From contig PABA01000017.1 in the NCBI GenBank assembly GCA_002699025.1, forward strand, positions 1 to 37,280: a stretch of 37,280 nucleotides of DNA, in the 5' to 3' direction. This document shows positions 20,311 through 31,892 of the stretch, piece by piece. The number at the start of each line of letters is the position of its first letter. Positions within the stretch are counted from its first letter, which is position 1. The translations under genes were made by a program, and so were the position numbers. The notes below the pieces were generated by a model, which worked only from the letters and a program-made list of their open reading frames with translations, ran no database searches and was not told where the DNA came from. This stretch comes from Sandaracinus sp. (GTDB lineage: Bacteria > Myxococcota_A > Polyangia > Polyangiales > Houyiibacteriaceae).

Positions 20311-20490
20311 CCCGTGCCCGCCACGCCCATGCCCATGCCCATGCCCGCGGGGCAGAAGAGGGGCTCGAGCGCGCTCGGTTGGGGACCGGTGCCCGTGCCC
20401 GTGGGGCAGAAGAGGGGCTCGAGCGCGCTCGGGACGCTCTTCGAGCACGAGCACGAGCACGAGGACGTGGACGAGGACGTGGACGTCGAC
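20311..20490. repeat. CCCGTG/CCCATG hexamers with a duplicated 30-bp block
   Basis: The 328-bp gap between the exporter and the first giant gene holds repeats rather than a gene. CCCGTG and CCCATG hexamers run from 20311 to 20346 and again at about 20389-20402. A 30-bp block starting GGGGCAGAAGAGGGGCTCGA occurs at 20349-20378 and 20403-20432; it contains the perfect palindrome CGAGCGCGCTCG. At 20443-20490 follow GAGCAC (three), alternating GAGGAC/GTGGAC and GTCGAC. The giant gene's own ribosome site GGGGAGG is at 20607-20613. Confidence 0.85.
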
Positions 20491-20616: not shown

Positions 20617-23600
20617 ATGCGGGGAGCGAGAGGAACGTCGCGCGGCGCGAGCGCCGCGTGGAGGACCGCGTGCGCGCTCGGCGCGCTCGTGCTGGGGGCG
20701 CCCATGCTCGGCGCGAGCGGCGTCGCGGCGCAGGCGCGGACGGGCTTCGAGGCCACGGTGCACGGCGATGGCGCCCTCCGCGCGGGTCGCACGACCCGGG
20801 TGCTCGGGCGCGCCTTCGAGGTGCGCGGGCTCGCGCGGCTCCGGCCCCTCCCCGGCGCGACGGTGCGCCTCCGCTGGGTGAGCCGCGTCGAGGGCGTCGA
20901 GCCCGGCCCCTGGGTCGAGGGCGAGGCCGACGCCCGAGGCGACTTCGCCCTCGGTGTCGCCGTGCCCGCGCACGCAGCCGACCCCTCCGAGCTCGAGCTC
21001 GAGGTCGGCGAGGGCGAGGCCCACCGCACCCTCCGCGTGCCGGTGCACGTCACGCCCGCGGAGCTCCTCCTCCTCCAGACGGACCGCCGCTTCTACGAGC
21101 CGGGCGAGACCGTCCACGCCTGGGTCCTCGCCCGCGACGCCGCTACCCGCCGGCCCCTCCCGAACACGCCGCTCCAGATCGTCCTCGGCTCGAGCGGCCT
21201 CGGCCGCGCCGGCCGCGATGTCCGCACGGGCCCCTCGGGCGCCGCCCACGTCACCTTCCCCCTGCCGCCCGGCCACCCCGCCACGACGCTCCAGGTGCGC
21301 GCCCGCGTCGGGCACGGCGAGGAGAGCGGCTCCCACCGGGCCAGCGCGACGCAGACGGTCCAGGTCGGCCGCCGCACGCGCGACCGCCTCCTCGTGACGC
21401 TCGACTGGCCCGAGACGCAGGTCCCGCCCGGCGCCCGCTTCCACCCGAAGGTCGAGGTCACGGCCCCGAGCGGCGCCCCCGCCCGCGACGCGCGCGTCTT
21501 CCTCCACGTGCAGGGCGCGGAGACGCTCCAGGCCCGCACGGACGCGGACGGCGTCGCCCGCTTCGACGCGCGCGCGCCGGCCTACCTCATCGCCGAGACG
21601 GGCCTGGTCGGCGTCCGCGCCGAGATCATGCACGCGGCCCACGGCACGGCCGAGGCCCGGCGCTCGCTCCGCCTCGCCGCCCCGCTCGCGCTCCGGGTCG
21701 AGACGGCGGTCCAAGGGGGCGCCATCGTGCCCGAGGTCCCCTCGACGCTGCTCCTCCGAATCGCCGACGCGGCCGGCGATCCGCCGGCGGAGGACACGGC
21801 CGTCACGATCACCGGGCCGGGCCTCCGCCGCCCGCTCACCCGCGGGACGGACGAGAACGGTCTCGTCGAGCTGGACGTGCGCGTGCCGCCCGGCGCCGTC
21901 GCGCCCCACGAGGGCCACCTCGGCTGCGCCCGCGGGCCGGCGGCCTTCTGGGACGTCTCCATCGCCGGGCCCCGCGCCCGCGTCCTCCGCGTCTGCGCGC
22001 CGGTCGCCCTCGACGCGCAGGTCCGCCCCGTCGCCGGCCGCCCCCTCGCCGAGCCCGGCGAGCCCCTCGAGGTGCGCCTGCTCCGCCGCCCCGCCGCGCG
22101 TCGTGCGCGGGTGCTGGTCTACGTCGCGAACGGCGCCGGCGTCGCCGCCTCCACGGTGCTCGGTCCGGGCGAGACGCGCGCCCGCTTCCCGCTCCCGGAC
22201 GCGCTCGGGCTCCATCACGTCGTCGCGCGCCCGCTCGCCGAGCCCGGCGCCGAGGTGGCCGGCGGCGTCGAGGCGATGGATCTGCTCCTCGTGCGCCCGG
22301 CCCGGCCCGCCTTCGTCGAGGCCCGCCCGACGGCGCCCCTCTATCCGGTCGGGGGCACGGCGGCCGTCGAGGTCGACACGCAGGCGGGCGCCGGACCCGG
22401 CTGGCTCGCCGTCGACGTGCGCGACCTCGCCCAGCACGGCGGCGAGCGCCCGTTCCGCGCGCACCCCTTCGCGCGCCGCTGGCGCCGGGCCCTGCTCGAG
22501 GCCGACGACGACGTCTCCCGCCGGCTGCTCCGCACCACCCTCGCCCAGCTCGCCAGCTCGGGCACCCCGCTCCACCCCTCGGCCCCGCTCCTCGACGACT
22601 TCGGCCGCGCCACCAGCGCGTCCCCGGGCCGCCGCGCCGAGGGCGTGGATCTCCGCGACCCCTTCGTCGTCGCCCGGGAGCTCGAGCGCCGCGGCGTCGC
22701 GCCGGTCCTCCGCGGCGTCGAGCGAGCGCTCGCGAACGCCGCGGATCCGGCCGCGCTCGTCGCCGGAGAAGGGCCTCGCCGACGCTTCCACCCCGAGGTC
22801 GTCGCCCGCGCCATGCCCGACCTCGAGCTCCGTACGCTCGGCGGCGCGCCCATCACCCTCGCCGCGCTCCAGGACGCGGTGCCCGAGCTCACCTTCGAGC
22901 GCGTCGCGCGCCGGGTCGCGCGCCTCCGCCTGGTGCGCGCCCTGACCGCGCTCTCCGACGCGCTCGACCCGGCCCGCGGCGGGAGCCTCCTCGACGAGCC
23001 GCCCGAGCGCTGGATCTCGCGCCTCGTGCAGGCCGGCCAGCTCGCGCCGCTCGATCTTCGCGATCCCTGGGGCGGCGCGCTCGGGCTGCGCCCGCGTCCG
23101 CGCGGCGTGCCGAGCCTCTCGCGGCGCGCGCCCGAGCTCACCCTGGCCTACCCCGGGCCGGACGGGCGTCTCGGGACGGGCGACGACGTGGTCGATCCCT
23201 TCGCGCGCGTCGTGCCGGCGGGTACGGTCTACGCCGTCGCCTCGGGCGAGGACGAGCTGATGCGCGCGCTCGCCCTGATCGCGCCCGGCGAGGCCGCGCT
23301 CCAGGCCATGCTCGAGGCCTTCACGCGCATGACGGCCGCCATGCAGGAGGCGCTGATCGCCGACGCCACGATCGCCGGCGCCACCGAGGGCCTCGCCGGG
23401 AACCTCATCGGGGACGCGCTCGGTGTCGGCGGCCTCGGCCTCGGTGGCATCGGCCACGGCGGTGGCGGCGGGAGCGGGAGCGGCTACGGGCGCGGGCGGG
23501 CCTCGCGCGTGCCGCGCATCCGCACGGGCCGCGCGTCCGTCAGCGGCGGCATGCCGGGGTCGCTCTCGGGGCTCGTTCGCGAGGAGTTCCCGGGGACGCT

Positions 23601-25497
23601 CCTCTTCCTGCCGCACGTGCCGGTGGACGACGACGGAAGGACGACGGTGGAGATCCCGCTCGCGGACGCGGCGACGACCTACCTGGTGGAGATCATCCAC
23701 TGGCGCGCGGACGGCTGGCTCTGGTCGACGAAGACGCGCGTGCGCGCGGATCAGGAGCTGGTCGTGGACGCGCCGGTGCCCCGCTGGGCGACGGAGGGGG
23801 ACGCGCTCGAGCTCCTCCTCCGCGCGGCGAACCGCGGCGCGCGGCCGCGGACGGTGCAGCTCCGCGTCGAGGCCGAGGGGCTCGCGCTCGAGGCGCGGGA
23901 GCCGGCGCCGCTCGACGTGCCCCCGGAGGACGCGCGGGCCGCGCGGGTGCGCCTCGCGCCGCCGGTGGGCGAGGGGCACCTGGTCGTGACCGGCCGGAGC
24001 GGCGACCTCGCGGACGGCACGCGGCGCCCCCTCGGCGTCCTGCCGGACGCGCGCCGGGCGACGATCTGGCGCGAGGCCCTGATCGACGGGACCGGCGAGG
24101 TCGCCCTCGAGCTCCCGGAGGACGCGCGGCCGCGGGCCGGCGGCGCGGTGGTCGTCCGGACCGGGCGGGCCGCCTTCGGCTCGGGCGTGCTCTGGGACGG
24201 CTGGGAGGCGGCGCGGCGCGGCGCGCCGGGCGCCGAGGCGGTGTGGCGGGCCGGCGAGTGGCTCGTGCCCTGGCGCGAGGCGACCTCGCGGCGCGCGGGC
24301 GTCTTCGAGGCCTACGCCTTCGCCACGGCCTGGCGGGACGCGCGCGCGCTGCCGCGGGCGGTCGCGCGGCGCCTGCTCGGGGCGCTCACGCCGGACGCTC
24401 CGCCGAGCTCCGAGCAGGAGGCGCTGCGGGCGGCGCTGACGCTCCACGCGCTGGCTCCGGTGGCGGCGCACCTCGAGGCGCGCGAGGAGCTCGCTGCGCC
24501 GGCGCGGCACCTGCTCGCGACGCTCCGCCAGCACGTCGAGGAGAGCGCCGCGCGCCGCTCGGAGGCTCCGGCGCTCCAGGCCGCGGCCGCCCTCGCGCTG
24601 GCGACGACGGTGCAGGACGAGGAGCGGGCCCGTGAGCACCTGCGGCGCGCGCGGCGGGCCGTCGTGCGCTTCGGCGAGGAGGCCTGGCTGCAGGCGCGCG
24701 CCCTCGGCTCCCAGAACGTCGCCGCCTCCGCCATCCTCGCGCTGGCCGAGGCCGAGGTCGGCGAGCGGAGCGAGGCCTTCGCGATCGTCCGTACGCTCGT
24801 CGCCCGGGCGCTCCGGCCGACCCGGCGCGACCCGAGCAGCCTGGTGCAGGGCCTGGCGAGCCTGGCGGCTGCGCGCCTCGTCGGCGCGCCCCTCGAGCGG
24901 GTCCGCGTCGTGCTCGACGGCGAGGCCCACGAGGTCCCCCTGGACGGCGGTCGCGGCGTGCTCGAGGCGCCCGGCCTCGACCGGCCCGGCCGGCACGTCG
25001 CGCGCGTGGAGAGCGCGGACGCCCGGCCGATCCACGTGCGCATGCGCGCCGAGTACGGCGCCCCCTGGCGCGCCTCCGAACCCGGCGCCGCGCCCCTCGC
25101 GCTCGAGGTCGCGCGCACGCACCCGGAGGGCGACTCGGCGCTCCGCGTCGGCGGCTTCGCGACCTGGGAGGTCCGCGTCCGCAACCTCCGCCCGCGCACG
25201 CTGGCGCGCACCTACGTCGAGGTCGAGCTGCCCACCGGCGCCGAGCTCGAGCCGAGCAGCTACGCGGCGCTCGAGCAGCGCTCCCGCGGTCGCCCGACGC
25301 TCCATCGGAAGACGCTGCAGATCCCGCTCCGCCCGCTCCTCCCGGGCCGCGAGGTGCGCCTCCCCCTGCGCGTCCGCTGGACCGTCCCCGGTGCCCTCCG
25401 CGCCTTCGGCGTGGCCGCCTTCCCCGAGACGCGACCGGATCAGGTCGCCGTGCACCCGCCCGAGACGATCACCGTGCTCCCCCCGGAGGGCTCCTGA
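20617..25497 (+). CDS. Giant secreted alpha-2-macroglobulin-like protein with an embedded GspG-like segment
   Basis: A 1626-residue protein. GGGGAGG before ATG 20617 sets the start, and residues 1-40 form a Sec signal ending GVAAQA. An MG2-type domain starts with LLLQTDRRFYEPGETV (about 151-166), followed by several beta-sandwich repeats with EVPSTLLLRIADAAG and DENGLVELDV-type turns. Near 745-865 a helical stretch leads to DPWGG (Asp816) and GPDGRLGTGDDV (Asp849, Asp856, Asp857), closely resembling the C-terminal domain of type II secretion pseudopilin GspG. A Gly-rich, Arg-studded stretch (about 938-979) sits where macroglobulins carry a bait region. EEFPGTLLFLPHVPVDDDGR (about 989) opens the A2M-type domain. 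The thioester motif CxEQ is absent, so it cannot trap proteases covalently. The stop overlaps the next ATG (TGATG). Probably a periplasmic or surface protein; function unknown. Confidence 0.8.
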   Translation: MRGARGTSRGASAAWRTACALGALVLGAPMLGASGVAAQARTGFEATVHGDGALRAGRTTRVLGRAFEVRGLARLRPLPGATVRLRWVSRVEGVEPGPWVEGEADARGDFALGVAVPAHAADPSELELEVGEGEAHRTLRVPVHVTPAELLLLQTDRRFYEPGETVHAWVLARDAATRRPLPNTPLQIVLGSSGLGRAGRDVRTGPSGAAHVTFPLPPGHPATTLQVRARVGHGEESGSHRASATQTVQVGRRTRDRLLVTLDWPETQVPPGARFHPKVEVTAPSGAPARDARVFLHVQGAETLQARTDADGVARFDARAPAYLIAETGLVGVRAEIMHAAHGTAEARRSLRLAAPLALRVETAVQGGAIVPEVPSTLLLRIADAAGDPPAEDTAVTITGPGLRRPLTRGTDENGLVELDVRVPPGAVAPHEGHLGCARGPAAFWDVSIAGPRARVLRVCAPVALDAQVRPVAGRPLAEPGEPLEVRLLRRPAARRARVLVYVANGAGVAASTVLGPGETRARFPLPDALGLHHVVARPLAEPGAEVAGGVEAMDLLLVRPARPAFVEARPTAPLYPVGGTAAVEVDTQAGAGPGWLAVDVRDLAQHGGERPFRAHPFARRWRRALLEADDDVSRRLLRTTLAQLASSGTPLHPSAPLLDDFGRATSASPGRRAEGVDLRDPFVVARELERRGVAPVLRGVERALANAADPAALVAGEGPRRRFHPEVVARAMPDLELRTLGGAPITLAALQDAVPELTFERVARRVARLRLVRALTALSDALDPARGGSLLDEPPERWISRLVQAGQLAPLDLRDPWGGALGLRPRPRGVPSLSRRAPELTLAYPGPDGRLGTGDDVVDPFARVVPAGTVYAVASGEDELMRALALIAPGEAALQAMLEAFTRMTAAMQEALIADATIAGATEGLAGNLIGDALGVGGLGLGGIGHGGGGGSGSGYGRGRASRVPRIRTGRASVSGGMPGSLSGLVREEFPGTLLFLPHVPVDDDGRTTVEIPLADAATTYLVEIIHWRADGWLWSTKTRVRADQELVVDAPVPRWATEGDALELLLRAANRGARPRTVQLRVEAEGLALEAREPAPLDVPPEDARAARVRLAPPVGEGHLVVTGRSGDLADGTRRPLGVLPDARRATIWREALIDGTGEVALELPEDARPRAGGAVVVRTGRAAFGSGVLWDGWEAARRGAPGAEAVWRAGEWLVPWREATSRRAGVFEAYAFATAWRDARALPRAVARRLLGALTPDAPPSSEQEALRAALTLHALAPVAAHLEAREELAAPARHLLATLRQHVEESAARRSEAPALQAAAALALATTVQDEERAREHLRRARRAVVRFGEEAWLQARALGSQNVAASAILALAEAEVGERSEAFAIVRTLVARALRPTRRDPSSLVQGLASLAAARLVGAPLERVRVVLDGEAHEVPLDGGRGVLEAPGLDRPGRHVARVESADARPIHVRMRAEYGAPWRASEPGAAPLALEVARTHPEGDSALRVGGFATWEVRVRNLRPRTLARTYVEVELPTGAELEPSSYAALEQRSRGRPTLHRKTLQIPLRPLLPGREVRLPLRVRWTVPGALRAFGVAAFPETRPDQVAVHPPETITVLPPEGS

Positions 25498-28400
25498 TGC
25501 GTTCGCCGTCCTCGCTCCCGTCCCGCCGTGCCCGCGCCCGCGCATCCTGCGCTGCGTCCTCCGCTGCGGCGCGCTTCCCCGCCGCGGCCTCCCGCGGCGA
25601 GCCCGGTCCCGTCGTGCGCCTCCGGGCAGCGTTCCTCCGCGCCGGGTTCCTCCGGGCCGCGTTCCTCCGGGCCGCGTTCCTCCGGGCCGCGTTTCTCCGC
25701 GCCGCGTTCCTCCGGGCCGGGTTCCTCCGCGCCGGGTTCCTCCGCGCCATGCCGTTCGGCGCCGCGGCCCTCGCCGCCATGCTCTTCGCCGCGGCCTTCG
25801 CCCCGGCCGGCGCCCACGCTCAGGGCTTCGCACGCCGCGCCTTCGACGCGGGCCCCGTCAGCGGCCTCGAGATGAGCCTCGAGGGCCCCACCCGCGTGCG
25901 CCAGGGCGAGACCGGGCGCTGGCTCCTCGCCGTCCACGAGATCCACGGCGACCGCGACTTCCGCCCGGCCGCGGGCGTGACCGTGCGCGTCCTCGCCTCC
26001 TTCCGCCACGACGCCCCCGTCGCCGAGGTCGTGACCGACGCGCACGGCCGCGCGACCGTGCCCATCGCGATCCCGGACGACCTCGAGGGGGGCTTCGACC
26101 TCGACCTCGACGCGCGCGCCGAGCGGCTCGGCATGCGCCGACGCTTCCGGCTGCACGTCGCCGTCGGGCGCGAGGTGAGCTTGCGCCTCGCGACGCACCC
26201 GCGGACCGCGGTCGCTCCGGGGGCGCCCTTCGCCGTCGCCGGCACCCTGAGGGACGAGCGCGGCGCGCCGCGCGCCGGCGAGGCGGTCGAGATCGAGCTC
26301 CGCCGCGGAGGCACGCTGCTCCACGGGCCGAGGGAGGTGCGCGTGGGTCCGGGCGGGGGCTTCGCGCTCGCCCTCGAGGCGCCGGCCACGCCCGGCGAGG
26401 CGCTCGAGGTGCGCGCGCGCGCCGCGGGGACGCGGACGGCGACCCGCCTCCAGGTGCGCGCGCCGGCGGCCGCGCGCGTGGAGGTGCTCGCGATCCCGGC
26501 GCGGCGGGTAGCCCAGCCGGGCGACGTGGTGCCCGTGACGATCCTGGTGCGCGACGAGGTCGGCCGGCCGCTCGAGGGCGCGCGGGTGAGCGGGCTCCCC
26601 GGGCCCGCGCAGAGCGACGAGGTGCCCGAGGCCCACACGGACGCGCGCGGTCGCGCCGAGCTCCCCTGGCACGTGCGGCGCGCCGAGGCGCCCTTCGAGG
26701 ATCGGCAGGCCACCGTGAACGTGGAGGTGCCCGGCATCGGTCGCGCCACGGCCGTGGCGCGGCTCCGGGTCGCGACGGCGCCGCGGGCGTTGTCCGCGGT
26801 GGCGGAGGCGGGCGCGCTCGTGCCCGAGGTGCCCTCGCGCGTCTTCGTGCGCGCCGTGGAGCCGGACGGGTCGCCGAGCGTCGGCGTGGAGGTGCGCCTG
26901 GCGAGCCCGCGGCTCGGCCAGCACGTGGCGGAGACGGACGCGGCGGGCGTCGCGACCTTCGAGGTGGAGCTCGCGCCGGAGCGCGCGGAGCCCGACGCCT
27001 GCGGCGGCGCCACGGCGCTCGCCGTGACCCTCGAGAGCGGCGGCGCCCGGCGCGAGAGCTGCCTCCCGGTCGACCCGGACGGCCAGCTGCGGGTGCGCGC
27101 GGTGGCGGACGGCGCGCGGCTGGTGATCGGCCTCGCGCGCCGCCCCGCCGTGCGCCGCGCGCCCGTGCTCCTCACGCTCCTCCACGACGCGGGCGACCGG
27201 CGGAGGCCGCTGGCCCAGCGGGTGGTCGGGGCTGGCGCCGGGGAGCTGGAGTGGACGCCCCTGGACGCGCTCCCGCAGGGCGAGCTCGTCGTGCGCGCGC
27301 GGCCCCTGGTCGGGCCCGGCCGCGCGGAGGTGCGCGGCGGCGTGGCGCCCGTCGAGCGCCCGCCGACGGAGGCGCCCCTCCGTCTCGAGGTCGAGGGCCG
27401 GCGCGCGCGCGTCACCCACGACGACGTGGCCCTGCTGCTCCTCGTGCCCGCCGCGGAGGTGCGCGAGCCGGCCGAGGCGCCGCCTGCGACGCCGGCCTCG
27501 CGCGCGGCCGCGCAGGCGCGCGAAGCGGGCCCGGACGTCGCCGCGCCGGCCGTGCTCCGCGACGGGACGATCGTGCCCCTCCCCGCGCTCGAGGACGCGC
27601 CGGCCGAGGGCGTGCTCCGCGACCCCTGGCGGCAGCGCGCCCGCTACCGCACCGGACGCCTAGCGCTCGTGCTTCGCGCGCTCGAGGAGAAGGTCGACGC
27701 GGCGAGCGCGACCGGAGACCTCGAGGGCGTCGCCCACCGGGCCCGCGGGCGCTGGCGCCTCAACGAGGCCGTGCTCGACAGCCTGCTCGGGGGCGACGCG
27801 CAGCTCGGCGCCGAGGGCGCGCGGGACCTCGGCGGGCTGCCGCTGAGCCTGGCGCAGCTCCAGGCGCTGGCGCCGGCCCTCGACTACGACCGGGTCGCGC
27901 GCCGGGTCACGCGCCGCCGGCTCCTCGAGACGCTCATGGCGCTCCGCGAGCTGGTGCAGCAGCGGGGCCTCGACCTGGCCTTCGCGCGGCGGGGCAGCCC
28001 GGCCGACTGGATCGTCCCGCTCGTCGAGCAGGTGGGCGAGGGCGGCATGCGCGACGGATGGGGCCGGCCCCTCGCGCTCCGCCCGGTGCGCGGCCGCGCG
28101 CGCTTCACCCTGCTCGTGCCCGTGCCCGGCTGGGAGTTGGTCTCCGCCGGGCCGGACGGGCGCTTCGGCAACGGCGACGACGTGGTCGATCCGACGGCGC
28201 GCGTCTTGCCGAGCGGCGGCCTCTACGCGGAGGCGGTCGACGAGGACGGCCTCCTCGCGCAGCTCGAGGGGGTGGCGCTGGGGCGGGCGACGCTCGACGC
28301 GCTCGGCATGGCCCTCGCCGGGATCGACCCGGTCCAGGCGTCGCCCTCGGAGGCGGCGGGCCCGGCCCGCGAGGCGCGCCTGCCCGAGCCGCTCGGGCCG

Positions 28401-30287
28401 GCGCCGGATCCGCGCTTCCTCCCGGCGCGCGGCCGGGACGTGCGCGTGCTGACGGCGCCCCGGGGCGTGCCGGTGACGCTGGCCGTGCCCGAGGTGCCGG
28501 CGCGCTGGCAGGTCGTGGCGATCGGCTGGCGCGACGGCCGGCCCGTCCTGCGCCGTCGGGCGCTGGCGGTGGAGCGGGCCGCGCGGCTGGCCGGGCGCTG
28601 GCCGACGCGGCTCGGGGAGGCGCCGCTCGAGGTGGCTCTCGACGTGCTCGCCTACCGGCCGCTCCGCGGCGCGCGGCTCCGCGTGGAGGCCACGGACCTC
28701 GAGGTGGAGGGGCTCGGCGAGGCCTTCGAGCTGGCCCCGGGGACGAGCGCGCGGCGCCGCCTCCGGCTTCGGGCGAGCGGGCCCGCGCCGGCGTTGACGC
28801 TCCTCCTCGAGGACGGCGAGGGGCGCGCGCTCTGGCGCGAGGCGCGGCGCTTCGTGCGCGCTCGGGACGGCAGCGGGCGCGCGCGCTGGGGCGGCGCCTT
28901 CGTCGAGGGCGCCTGGCCCGTCGAGGTGCCGCTCGACGAGGACGCCGTGGACGTCCGGGCGCACCTCCACGTGGTCGCGCCCGGGCGGCTCCATCGGGAC
29001 CCGCTCGTGCGGCGCTGGGAGGGCGGCGGCGCGCTCCGGGCCTGGGCGGCGGCGCTCGCGGGGGAGCGCCTCGACCCGAGCCTGACGGCGAGCCTCGACG
29101 CGGGGCGGGCGCGGGCCCTGCCGGAGCCCGTCGACGCGGCCTGCGCGGCCATCGCCTGGACCGCCCTCGCCGAGGCCCTCCCCGACGGCCGGCGCCACGA
29201 GTGGATGGCGGGCTACCAGCGCGCGCTCCAGCAGCTCGGCTCGGACGCGCCGGGGGACGTGGCGACGGCGTCGGCGCTCCTGGCGGCGCTGGCGCCCGTG
29301 GCCGCGGGCACGCCGGTCGCGCAGGGGAGCGGCCGGGTCGAGGCGCTCGTGGACGCGCTCCGCTGGCGGCTCTGGGACGCGCCCCGGCGCCACGCGGAGG
29401 AGCCGGCGGCGCTGGCGCGGGCGGCGGCGGCGCTGCTCCTTGCGGATCCGGCGGACGCGAGCGGGCGCGCCCTCTACGTGGCGGCGCGGGAGGCGAGCGA
29501 GGAGGCGGCGCGCGGCGCGCTCGAGGTGCCGGCCGAGACCCCGCGCGAGCGGGTGGCGGCGACGGCGGCGCTGGCGGTGGCGGCGCACCAGCTCGGGGAG
29601 GCCGAGGTGGCCGGGCGGCTGCTCCGCGGGGCGGCGCCCCGGGCCTGGATGGCCTTCGCGGAGGGCGGGGACGCGGACGCGGCCTTCTGGCTGCTGGCGG
29701 CCTCGAGCTACGGCGCCCTCGGCGGGCGGAGCGGCGCGGTCGGCGCCAGCGTGGACGGCGAGGCGGTGGCGCTCCAGGAGGGCGTGGGCGTGGCCGAGCT
29801 CGAGGTCGAGGGCGGCGTCGCGGGCGGCGAGCTGGTCGTCGAGGGGGCGGCGCTCGCGCGGCTCGAGCTGCGCTACCGGCGGGCCGTGGAGGCGCGCGAA
29901 GGCGACTTCGAGCTGGCCGTCGAGGGCACGGTCGGTCGCGCGGGGGCGGCGGCGCCGCTCGAGCTCCGGCTGAAGGCGCGGGAGGCGAGCGCGCGGCCCG
30001 TCGTGCAGCTCCGCCTGCCGCCGGGGGCGGAGCTGGACCGGGAGGCGCGGCGGGCGCTGGTCGGCGACGACGAGGTGCGGAGCGTGAGCCGGCCGACGCG
30101 GGACGGCGAGGTGCGCCTCGAGCTGGTCGCGCTGGCGGCCGGGCAGGAGGCGCGCGTGCCGCTGCCGCTCTTCTGGACCGCGGCGGGGACGCGGCGCGGG
30201 CTGGCGCTGGCCGTCTGGGATGCGGAGCGCCCGTGGGACGCGAGCGCGCTGCCGGAGCGGGAGCTGGAGGTGCGCTGGGAGGAGTGA
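25497..30287 (+). CDS. Second giant macroglobulin-like protein, paralogue of the preceding gene
   Basis: A 1596-residue protein translated by TGATG coupling, with GGAGG seven bases before the ATG. Before the obvious signal peptide (MPFGAAALAAMLFAAAF from residue 85, cleaved near AHAQG) lie 84 residues including a pentapeptide array (AAFLR/AGFLR), so the true start may be the ATG at 25749. The order matches the first giant: beta-sandwich repeats with GRAxxxxxV turns, a helical block (YDRVARRVTRRRLLETLMAL, compare FERVARRVARLRLVRALTAL), then a GspG-like segment with DGWG (Asp853) and GPDGRFGNGDDV (Asp887), then a degenerate A2M-like domain (VTLAVPEVPARWQVVAIGWR). It lacks the Gly-rich bait-like stretch and the thioester. 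Two paralogues in one transcript suggest a heteromeric or paired function; what they bind is unknown. Confidence 0.78.
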   Translation: MRSPSSLPSRRARARASCAASSAAARFPAAASRGEPGPVVRLRAAFLRAGFLRAAFLRAAFLRAAFLRAAFLRAGFLRAGFLRAMPFGAAALAAMLFAAAFAPAGAHAQGFARRAFDAGPVSGLEMSLEGPTRVRQGETGRWLLAVHEIHGDRDFRPAAGVTVRVLASFRHDAPVAEVVTDAHGRATVPIAIPDDLEGGFDLDLDARAERLGMRRRFRLHVAVGREVSLRLATHPRTAVAPGAPFAVAGTLRDERGAPRAGEAVEIELRRGGTLLHGPREVRVGPGGGFALALEAPATPGEALEVRARAAGTRTATRLQVRAPAAARVEVLAIPARRVAQPGDVVPVTILVRDEVGRPLEGARVSGLPGPAQSDEVPEAHTDARGRAELPWHVRRAEAPFEDRQATVNVEVPGIGRATAVARLRVATAPRALSAVAEAGALVPEVPSRVFVRAVEPDGSPSVGVEVRLASPRLGQHVAETDAAGVATFEVELAPERAEPDACGGATALAVTLESGGARRESCLPVDPDGQLRVRAVADGARLVIGLARRPAVRRAPVLLTLLHDAGDRRRPLAQRVVGAGAGELEWTPLDALPQGELVVRARPLVGPGRAEVRGGVAPVERPPTEAPLRLEVEGRRARVTHDDVALLLLVPAAEVREPAEAPPATPASRAAAQAREAGPDVAAPAVLRDGTIVPLPALEDAPAEGVLRDPWRQRARYRTGRLALVLRALEEKVDAASATGDLEGVAHRARGRWRLNEAVLDSLLGGDAQLGAEGARDLGGLPLSLAQLQALAPALDYDRVARRVTRRRLLETLMALRELVQQRGLDLAFARRGSPADWIVPLVEQVGEGGMRDGWGRPLALRPVRGRARFTLLVPVPGWELVSAGPDGRFGNGDDVVDPTARVLPSGGLYAEAVDEDGLLAQLEGVALGRATLDALGMALAGIDPVQASPSEAAGPAREARLPEPLGPAPDPRFLPARGRDVRVLTAPRGVPVTLAVPEVPARWQVVAIGWRDGRPVLRRRALAVERAARLAGRWPTRLGEAPLEVALDVLAYRPLRGARLRVEATDLEVEGLGEAFELAPGTSARRRLRLRASGPAPALTLLLEDGEGRALWREARRFVRARDGSGRARWGGAFVEGAWPVEVPLDEDAVDVRAHLHVVAPGRLHRDPLVRRWEGGGALRAWAAALAGERLDPSLTASLDAGRARALPEPVDAACAAIAWTALAEALPDGRRHEWMAGYQRALQQLGSDAPGDVATASALLAALAPVAAGTPVAQGSGRVEALVDALRWRLWDAPRRHAEEPAALARAAAALLLADPADASGRALYVAAREASEEAARGALEVPAETPRERVAATAALAVAAHQLGEAEVAGRLLRGAAPRAWMAFAEGGDADAAFWLLAASSYGALGGRSGAVGASVDGEAVALQEGVGVAELEVEGGVAGGELVVEGAALARLELRYRRAVEAREGDFELAVEGTVGRAGAAAPLELRLKAREASARPVVQLRLPPGAELDREARRALVGDDEVRSVSRPTRDGEVRLELVALAAGQEARVPLPLFWTAAGTRRGLALAVWDAERPWDASALPERELEVRWEE
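25631..25750 (+). repeat. 15-bp minisatellite at the 5' end of the second giant gene
   Basis: Eight 15-bp units of GTTCCTCCGGGCCGC type run right up to the internal ATG 25749, whose A and T are the last two bases of the array. In frame they encode FLRAA/FLRAG pentapeptides. Whether they are translated depends on which start is used. Confidence 0.9.
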
Positions 30288-30500: not shown

Positions 30501-30592
30501 TCCATCCGAGCCCGAGCCCGAGCGTGAGCGTCGAGCCCGAGACCGAGCCCGCGCTCCAACCGCCCGTCTCGGGTGCGCGAGGGGGACGCTCG

Positions 30593-30706
30593 TCTGGTCC
30601 TTCGACCTGCGGGCAGGGGCACGGGCACGGGCAGGGGCACGGGTTTTGGGTCTGGCCCTTCGACCTGCGGGCAGGGGCACGGGCACGGGTTTTGGCCGCT
30701 TTTTGG
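30593..30706 (+). repeat. Two adjacent copies of the CGACCTGCGGGCAGGGGC element
   Basis: Copies at 30593-30650 and 30651-30706 read TCTGGYCCTTCGACCTGCGG, then GGGCAC/GGGCAG hexamers, then GGGTTTTGG. They lie 35-150 bp upstream of the murein endopeptidase gene, in its orientation. The same element recurs inverted at 31909-32008 and tandemly at 32691-33065. Confidence 0.85.
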
Positions 30707-30740
30707 ACTGGGGCCCTGCCCGCCCCGTACACCCGAGAGC

Positions 30741-31892
30741 ATGGGACACGCGACCCGCATGCCGCTCCTCGTGCTCGCGCTGACCCTCGCCGTCGGGCCC
30801 GCGGGCGCTCCGACGGCCCGGGCGGATCGGCGCATCTGGACCGTGCAGGCCGGCGACGCCCTGAGCGTCCTCGCCGAGCGCTTCCAGTGCACCGTCGAGG
30901 AGCTCCGCGAGTGGAACGGCCTCGACGACGACCGCATCCTGGTCGGCCAGGAGCTCGTCGTCGCCGCGCCGGACACGCCCCCGCCGGGGCCCACCATCGC
31001 CCTCCGCCGCGGGGAGACCCTCAGCCACCTCGCCGTCCGCAACGACACCACCGTCGAGACCCTCCTCGAGCTCAACCCGGACCTCGACCCGGACCGGGTC
31101 CGCGCCGGCCAGGAGATCCGCCTCCCGGCCCCCGAGGGCCTGCTCCGCATCGACTACACGATCCGCCGCGGCGACACGCTCAGCCGCATCGCCGCGCGCC
31201 ACCGCGTCGAGGTGCGCGACCTCCTCCGCTGGAACCGCCACCTCCGCCGCGATCGCGTGCAGGCGGGCCAGGAGATCCGCATCTGGTCCGAGGTCCCCGA
31301 GAGCGTCTCCGAGAGCGTCGGCGCGCCCCACCACGGCCACCTCGAGCACCCGGAGCCGCTCCCGCCCCACCCGGGCTACATCATCCGCAACCGCGACAAG
31401 GCCTTCGGCACGCTCGAGACCGTGCTCTGGCTCCAGGAGGCCTTCGACGCCGTCCGCGCGCGCCACCCCGGCGCCCCGCGCCTGCGCGTGCACGACATCT
31501 CCGACCGCGACGGGGGGCCGCTCCACGGGCACCGCAGCCACCAGAGCGGCCGCGACGTCGACCTCTCGCTCTACCAGCGCCGCTGCGGCGGCCAGCCCTG
31601 CCCCATGCGCTGGGTGCGCCCCGGCGAGCTCGACGCCGAGCGCCTCTGGACGCTCTTCCAGAGCTGGCTCGAGAACGACCGGGTCGAGGCCATCTTCCTC
31701 GACTACAGCCTGCAGGAGCCCCTCTACCGCGAGGCGCGTCGCCGCGGCGCGAGCCGGGAGGAGCTGAGCCAGTGGATCCAGTATCCGCGCGGCCGCACGC
31801 ACCCCCTCGGCATCGTGCGCCACTACCCCCGCCACCGCGACCACGCCCACGTCCGCTTCGTCTGCCCGGACACGGACGAGAGCTGTCGCTGA
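30741..31892 (+). CDS. Triple-LysM murein endopeptidase (MepA-like)
   Basis: A 383-residue exported peptidoglycan hydrolase. The signal peptide covers about residues 1-29 (an ATG at 30759 is an alternative start). Three LysM peptidoglycan-binding modules follow at about 31-74, 86-128 and 135-180, each ending in a GQEL/GQEI turn. The C-terminal domain resembles the penicillin-insensitive endopeptidase MepA: HGHRSHQSGRDVDL carries the His and Asp zinc ligands of the LAS metallopeptidases, and HRDHAHVRF the HxH pair. It should cut peptide cross-links in the cell wall. The domain order (LysM first, enzyme last) is the usual one for anchoring a hydrolase to the sacculus. It is flanked on both sides by copies of the CGACCTGCGGGCAGGGGC element. 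Confidence 0.9.
   Translation: MGHATRMPLLVLALTLAVGPAGAPTARADRRIWTVQAGDALSVLAERFQCTVEELREWNGLDDDRILVGQELVVAAPDTPPPGPTIALRRGETLSHLAVRNDTTVETLLELNPDLDPDRVRAGQEIRLPAPEGLLRIDYTIRRGDTLSRIAARHRVEVRDLLRWNRHLRRDRVQAGQEIRIWSEVPESVSESVGAPHHGHLEHPEPLPPHPGYIIRNRDKAFGTLETVLWLQEAFDAVRARHPGAPRLRVHDISDRDGGPLHGHRSHQSGRDVDLSLYQRRCGGQPCPMRWVRPGELDAERLWTLFQSWLENDRVEAIFLDYSLQEPLYREARRRGASREELSQWIQYPRGRTHPLGIVRHYPRHRDHAHVRFVCPDTDESCR

Follow-up and report, generated by a model that had tools for sequence, protein, structure and literature searches.

A GspG-like pseudopilin module in the MG6 slot of tandem thioester-less alpha-2-macroglobulins from Sandaracinus sp.

Bacterial alpha-2-macroglobulins (A2Ms) include E. 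coli A2M (ECAM), which has a CLEQ thioester and a short disordered bait and is fired by bait untethering (PMC4498604), and MagD of Pseudomonas aeruginosa, a thioester-less A2M that traps protease noncovalently and works in a multi-protein complex (PMC5764988). In GspG, the major pseudopilin of type II secretion, the structure 3G20 has a Ca2+ bound in the loop PGPDGVPNTEDD by main-chain P114 and V119 together with D117, T122 and D125 (PMC3396595). Here we analyse a stretch of 37,280 nucleotides from Sandaracinus sp. (assembly GCA_002699025.1, contig PABA01000017.1, positions 1 to 37,280; hereafter the window) in which two genes, A (20617..25497, 1626 residues, ATG at 20617) and B (25497..30287, 1596 residues, ATG at 25497), both on the + strand as are all features given below, code for thioester-less A2M homologues, each with a GspG-like module in a slot of macroglobulin domain MG6. 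We regard this architecture as highly probable, and give a probability of about 0.6 to the best explanation of the data as a whole, that A and B are a co-translated pair in which the module-bearing proteins act as a non-covalent protease trap.

Like the type I A2Ms ECAM (YfhM) of E. coli and SaA2M of Salmonella, A and B combine an array of MG domains, an MG domain split by a bait slot, MG7 and C-terminal parts, and are predicted to be exported. In Pfam, A exceeds the cut-offs of MG2, MG4 and A2M, and B has scoring matches to MG4 and other sandwich domains of this kind. The hhalign alignment of A with thioester A2Ms is co-linear along 1489 columns (E 1.9e-72), that of B along its whole length (E 4.1e-47), and the two proteins are likewise co-linear when aligned to one another (E 1e-164). 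A thus belongs to the superfamily by MG2 and A2M (MG7) and B by co-linearity, the PDB matches of the A family and model include A2M, C3, C5 and CD109, and both proteins are full-length A2M homologues. The CxEQ thioester motif is present in none of 30 A and none of 24 B homologues and has no counterpart in the alignment with thioester A2Ms, so that thioester-mediated covalent capture is excluded. Judged by this motif, A and B fall outside type I and share the missing thioester with type II, the MagD-like proteins. In contrast to ECAM, with its thioester and short disordered bait, they hold a folded GspG-like domain in the slot; and while MagD, equally thioester-less, is encoded in the six-gene mag operon, A and B are two A2Ms coupled to each other with flanks that are not conserved.

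The stop codon of A and the start codon of B share one base in a TGATG overlap, and this type of overlap (ATGA/TGATG, mostly ATGA) is conserved among the loci with a pair. A precedes B in all 22 loci where both were found. A and B form a translationally coupled tandem of invariable A-then-B order. A begins with a Sec-type signal peptide, as judged by inspection, that lacks a lipobox, and most B products begin with a Sec-type-looking leader. In the window the start of gene B contains a 15-base-pair tandem repeat of 8.7 copies (25619-25748) encoding repeated FLRAA/FLRAG. Because the signal peptide of B seems to begin after this repeat, probably at M85, translation of B may in fact begin at 25749.

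The original prediction described in both paralogues a helical block, a DPWG or DGWG motif and a GPDG loop, and the positions in the open reading frames bear this out. In A, FERVARRVARLRLVRALTAL is followed by DPWG at residues 816-819 (23062..23073) and by GPDGRLGTGDDV from 847; in B, YDRVARRVTRRRLLETLMAL is followed by DGWG at 853-856 (28053..28064) and by GPDGRFGNGDDV from 885. The order helix, D(P/G)WG, loop is common to both, and the shared pattern exceeds chance. The modules span residues 741-888 of A (22837..23280) and 782-904 of B (27840..28208). Neither D nor W of D(P/G)W varies in any of 27 A-type or 21 B-type sequences, and equally invariant are the aspartates of the loop, D-x7-D, in every sequence with the region (27/27 A, 22/22 B). 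In A these are D849 and D857 of PGPDGRLGTGDD (residues 846-857, 23152..23187), equivalent to residues 114-125 of 3G20 with D117 and D125 as counterparts of the two aspartates; in B they are D887 and D895 of AGPDGRFGNGDD (884-895, 28146..28181). The position of T122 is occupied by T, N or S. The loops GPDGRLGTGDD of A and GPDGRFGNGDD of B both match the PERCAL calcium motif, G-x-D-G-x-x-[GN]-[TN]-x-D-D (PMC3396595), and are predicted to bind Ca2+.

The module of A is preceded by a conserved helical lead-in (residues 678-740, 22648..22836; helices in the model) with a conserved RDP near its start. A second conserved motif, (L)RDP(W), is present in both paralogues (A 681-682, B 707-710) about 140 residues before DPWG/DGWG; at two other loci (L147 and L149) a DPWR lies upstream of it.

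Neither A nor B alone matches T2SSG in Pfam and NCBIfam scans of the window proteins, and the case for GspG therefore rests on the family. With each sequence taken singly, weak T2SSG matches are given by 14 of 20 A-type and 3 of 19 B-type members, and the second A copy of the same genome (contig C7) reaches 17.6 bits in a genome search; all stay short of the curated Pfam cut-off, with best E values of 0.0056 for the relatives and 0.0009 for the modules of thioester A2Ms. When the profiles were compared by hhalign with one of 31 canonical GspG sequences of the order, the probabilities were 96.4% for A and 96.5% for B, compared with 0.1-1.3% for reversed or column-shuffled controls. The profile check proposed in the original prediction thus failed for the single proteins and succeeded for the family. 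Against the PDB, a long A-type profile found GspG 3G20 as its sole chain (E 0.73), and a trimmed A profile placed 3G20 first (E 0.02) and also listed PulG and two other GspG chains, the alignments to PulG and 5WDA running through the long helix. Weak matches to TLV_coat, DNA_photolyase, CP_ATPgrasp and a RusA-like PHROG had no structural support and were dropped.

AlphaFold models were made for residues 555-1180 of A (626 residues) and, separately and from B sequences alone, for residues 704-965 of B. In the A model the module is compact (predicted local distance difference test score, pLDDT, ~90), with a first helix of 24 residues and a further one, then a strand that follows DPWG and another that precedes the GPDG loop; the B model (predicted template modelling score 0.78) has the same element order. 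In both, the module is a separate alpha-beta domain and not part of a macroglobulin or TPR fold. Neither outcome that the original prediction had named as speaking against it, a lack of T2SSG similarity by profile or such an ordinary fold, was thus observed. With the large A model the Foldseek list was filled by A2M and complement matches and was unusable for the module, and the B module was for this reason folded alone. Foldseek then found one chain in the whole PDB, GspG 3G20, at an E of 9.2 that is insignificant by itself. The sequence search and the fold search of the whole PDB therefore each lead to the same protein, GspG. VIA-align superimposes the B module on 3G20 with a Z of 8.2 over 97 of 114 residues and on 3GN9 with 7.9 over 91 of 111 (root-mean-square deviation 2.8), Z values that are modest. 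As in GspG and PulG (3G20, 3GN9, 1T92), the module combines the soluble fold, DPWG and a calcium loop with both Asp ligands; it differs from them in having no prepilin leader or hydrophobic helix, in its internal position in a protein of about 1600 residues and in an extra helical segment behind it.

The PERCAL motif has been found in unrelated proteins (PMC3396595), and an isolated calcium loop could have arisen in, or been inserted into, an unrelated helical segment, the likeness to a pilin being convergent. For the same reason the loop alone is no proof of a pilin; that lies in the agreement of DPWG, helix and strands. Given that DPWG, the preceding helix and the strand order match GspG over 91-97 residues and that GspG is the sole family found by both sequence and fold, we consider such convergence highly improbable. 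Moreover, a profile of the corresponding modules of thioester A2Ms from Myxococcota scores 97.9% against canonical GspG, gives E values of 3.2e-6, 9.8e-6, 3.4e-5 and 1.3e-4 with solved GspG chains, GspG occupying the first six places, and in a genome search retrieves pseudopilin-sized open reading frames, about 30 giant ones and the family of the window (the C7 copy of the same genome at E 1.2e-8). Because this one profile links pseudopilins, solved GspG chains and the window family, homology, the insertion of a pseudopilin-like module into a macroglobulin scaffold and the first of the two origins that the original prediction had put forward, is favoured over convergence. The modules of A and B are homologous to the soluble domain of GspG.

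Aligned with CD109, C3, C5 and ECAM, the A model matches over its residues ~10-51 and 435-591, and the module between 51 and 435 is skipped. The first part corresponds to residues 565-605 of A (22309..22431), the last strands of MG6a before the insertion, which align to MG6a of C3, C5 and CD109; residues 988-1091 (23578..23889) form MG6b/MG7, with a Pfam A2M score of 24.4 bits, above cut-off, and a VIA match to C3, C4, C5 and CD109. As the alignments skip the module between matched parts of MG6, the insertion interrupts MG6 after MG6a and before the FPxTL strand of MG6b, a correction of the original placement between the beta-sandwich array and the A2M-type domain. The slot is that of the A2M bait region and of the anaphylatoxin of C3 and C5. 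Complement C3, C4 and C5 thus resemble A and B in carrying a folded domain at this place of MG6. In complement this domain, the anaphylatoxin, is a small bundle of helices with disulfides, whereas A and B have an alpha-beta domain that is unrelated to it and for which a calcium loop is predicted. The module of A is followed by 80 Gly-rich residues (906-985, 23332..23571), a stretch that is modelled as disordered (pLDDT <50 over model residues 361-427) and varies in length, full-span linkers in relatives measuring ~70-123 residues; it is a natural candidate for a bait.

The module is not confined to the window. The same genome has a second A-B tandem pair (C7:23060-33153), and A-like matches occur in 25 of the 58 genomes searched, this one included, many with two or more and some only to distant A2Ms; the named relatives belong to Sandaracinaceae, Polyangiaceae and other Myxococcota. 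In a tree the A group and the B clade are separate and each spans the same genomes, and the A/B duplication is therefore old. The module was kept in both duplicates, and its conservation suggests that it is functionally important. Thioester A2Ms (with TED, A2M, A2M_recep and also BRD domains and GC(F/L)EQ) of other myxococcal families and classes have this module too, and at the same position. Of the 30 A2M loci read, which were the best-scoring and so favour strong A2M matches, at least 11 are of this kind. The slot measures 216-236 residues in these proteins, where measurable, versus 62-69 in two plain GCVEQ A2Ms. They (e.g. L146, L182, L185 and L188) are co-linear with A and B over the whole length, and in the alignment with A DPWG falls on DPWG and loop on loop; they differ in keeping GC(F/L)EQ, often in having a lipobox and in not forming a conserved A-B tandem.

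In other Myxococcota GCFEQ A2Ms (L190, G207:C172; L191, G262:C215; L192, G167:C2; also L158, L163 and L166) a multi-pass transmembrane segment, several hundred residues long, lies between MG6a and the FPETL strand, the slot of the GspG module. In a tree built from the region that follows the slot, the module-bearing thioester A2Ms and the A2Ms with transmembrane insertions form one clade, apart from plain A2Ms and from A+B; rooted on the plain A2Ms, A+B are the sister of this clade. A and B share a broad lineage with the module-bearing thioester A2Ms, and the module is a phylum-wide feature of one A2M lineage in Myxococcota, beyond the tandem pair. The simplest reading of this tree, in which branches are long, is that the module was gained once and that the A-B pair later lost the thioester. 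In the literature covered, from which most subscription journals were missing, no paper naming both alpha-2-macroglobulin and pseudopilin and no description of such a combination was found, and papers on macroglobulins and GspG were unrelated. The combination is thus, as first supposed, one for which we found no published description, although it is wider than a tandem pair.

Combining these data, we suggest that A and B would be an exported pair that senses and traps proteases noncovalently in a MagD-like manner and that the two proteins would form a complex, as MagD does. As to the mechanism, we tentatively propose, by analogy, that the module, stiffened by one Ca2+ in the GxDGxxGxxDD loop, would act as an anaphylatoxin-like folded plug that holds the native conformation and, in A, presents the disordered linker behind it as bait; cleavage of the linker would uncouple the module from MG6b, and the A-B complex would close on the protease. 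Besides the lack of a T2SSG match in A and B and the modest fold scores, several points weigh against this proposal. A B-type profile found no GspG among the PDB sequences; B is without a Gly-rich linker; conservation of the A linker (mean majority fraction 0.51) is lower than that of the module (0.61-0.68), a contrast that is not extreme; partners of the P. aeruginosa-type mag operon (MagA/B/F) were not seen near the pairs, no search with Mag sequences having been made; and function, Ca2+ binding, cleavage and A-B contact are all predicted from homology.

Alternatively, the module may be a rigid spacer only and the pair an envelope complex with a structural or adhesive role that has given up the handling of proteases. 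That all A and B homologues have lost the thioester would agree with this, as would the TED-like region, which diverges fast in the family alignment and in which Pfam recognizes no TED in the window proteins; but A and B retain the MG6 slot, MG7 and the C-terminal part, co-linear with thioester A2Ms, and the disordered linker is still present in A, and we consider this explanation rather unlikely.

Since it has the fold of the major pseudopilin, the module might instead dock the A2Ms to the type II secretion pseudopilus, the macroglobulin guarding the secretion route or keeping exported proteases inactive. The same genome has a type II secretion operon on contig C173 (gspF, gspG, gspH and a gspI-like gene, named by inspection), and among 57 genomes of the order 51 have T2SSG matches. 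However, the conserved residues (D, W, GxDGx6D) belong to the fold and the calcium core and form no assembly surface; conserved neighbours of any kind were looked for around the A-B pairs and none was found; and genome G040, 86% complete, has the pair and no T2SSG match above threshold. The prepilin leader and hydrophobic N-terminal helix are missing, the module being internal with charged helices before it, and for this reason it is not expected in a pseudopilus. A docking role, supported only by the origin of the fold, is in our view improbable. The type II secretion operons of the order also contain, just before gspG, a second GspG-like open reading frame without prepilin leader (DGWG/DAWG ... 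SAGPSG ... DDN; L005:6543-6965 and about 20 relatives among L098-L126).

Around the pair, the window has a 29-base sequence in two identical copies upstream of A (20350-20378 and 20404-20432) that is found nowhere else in the genome. Directly downstream of B lies a gene for a LysM protein (30573-31892) with a murein endopeptidase-like C-terminal part (MepA-like by eye), which is not conserved beside other A-B pairs.

For annotation, the module means that such A2Ms can be wrongly labelled as pseudopilins, or missed. As a putative protease trap with a GspG-like module, the A-B pair ties, by one domain at the trap's trigger, the macroglobulin/complement protease trap to the type II secretion pseudopilin, and offers a bacterial system for direct tests of a folded, predicted calcium-binding trigger domain. 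More speculatively, and with considerable doubt, the MG6 bait slot may be a general acceptor of domains, a pseudopilin or multi-pass membrane domain in Myxococcota and the anaphylatoxin in animal complement, and the GspG module may be the bacterial counterpart of the anaphylatoxin, a calcium-dependent signal released or displaced on protease attack. The arrangement points to a trigger slot of A2Ms that can take up entire domains from elsewhere, a point of relevance to the way in which complement acquired its anaphylatoxin.
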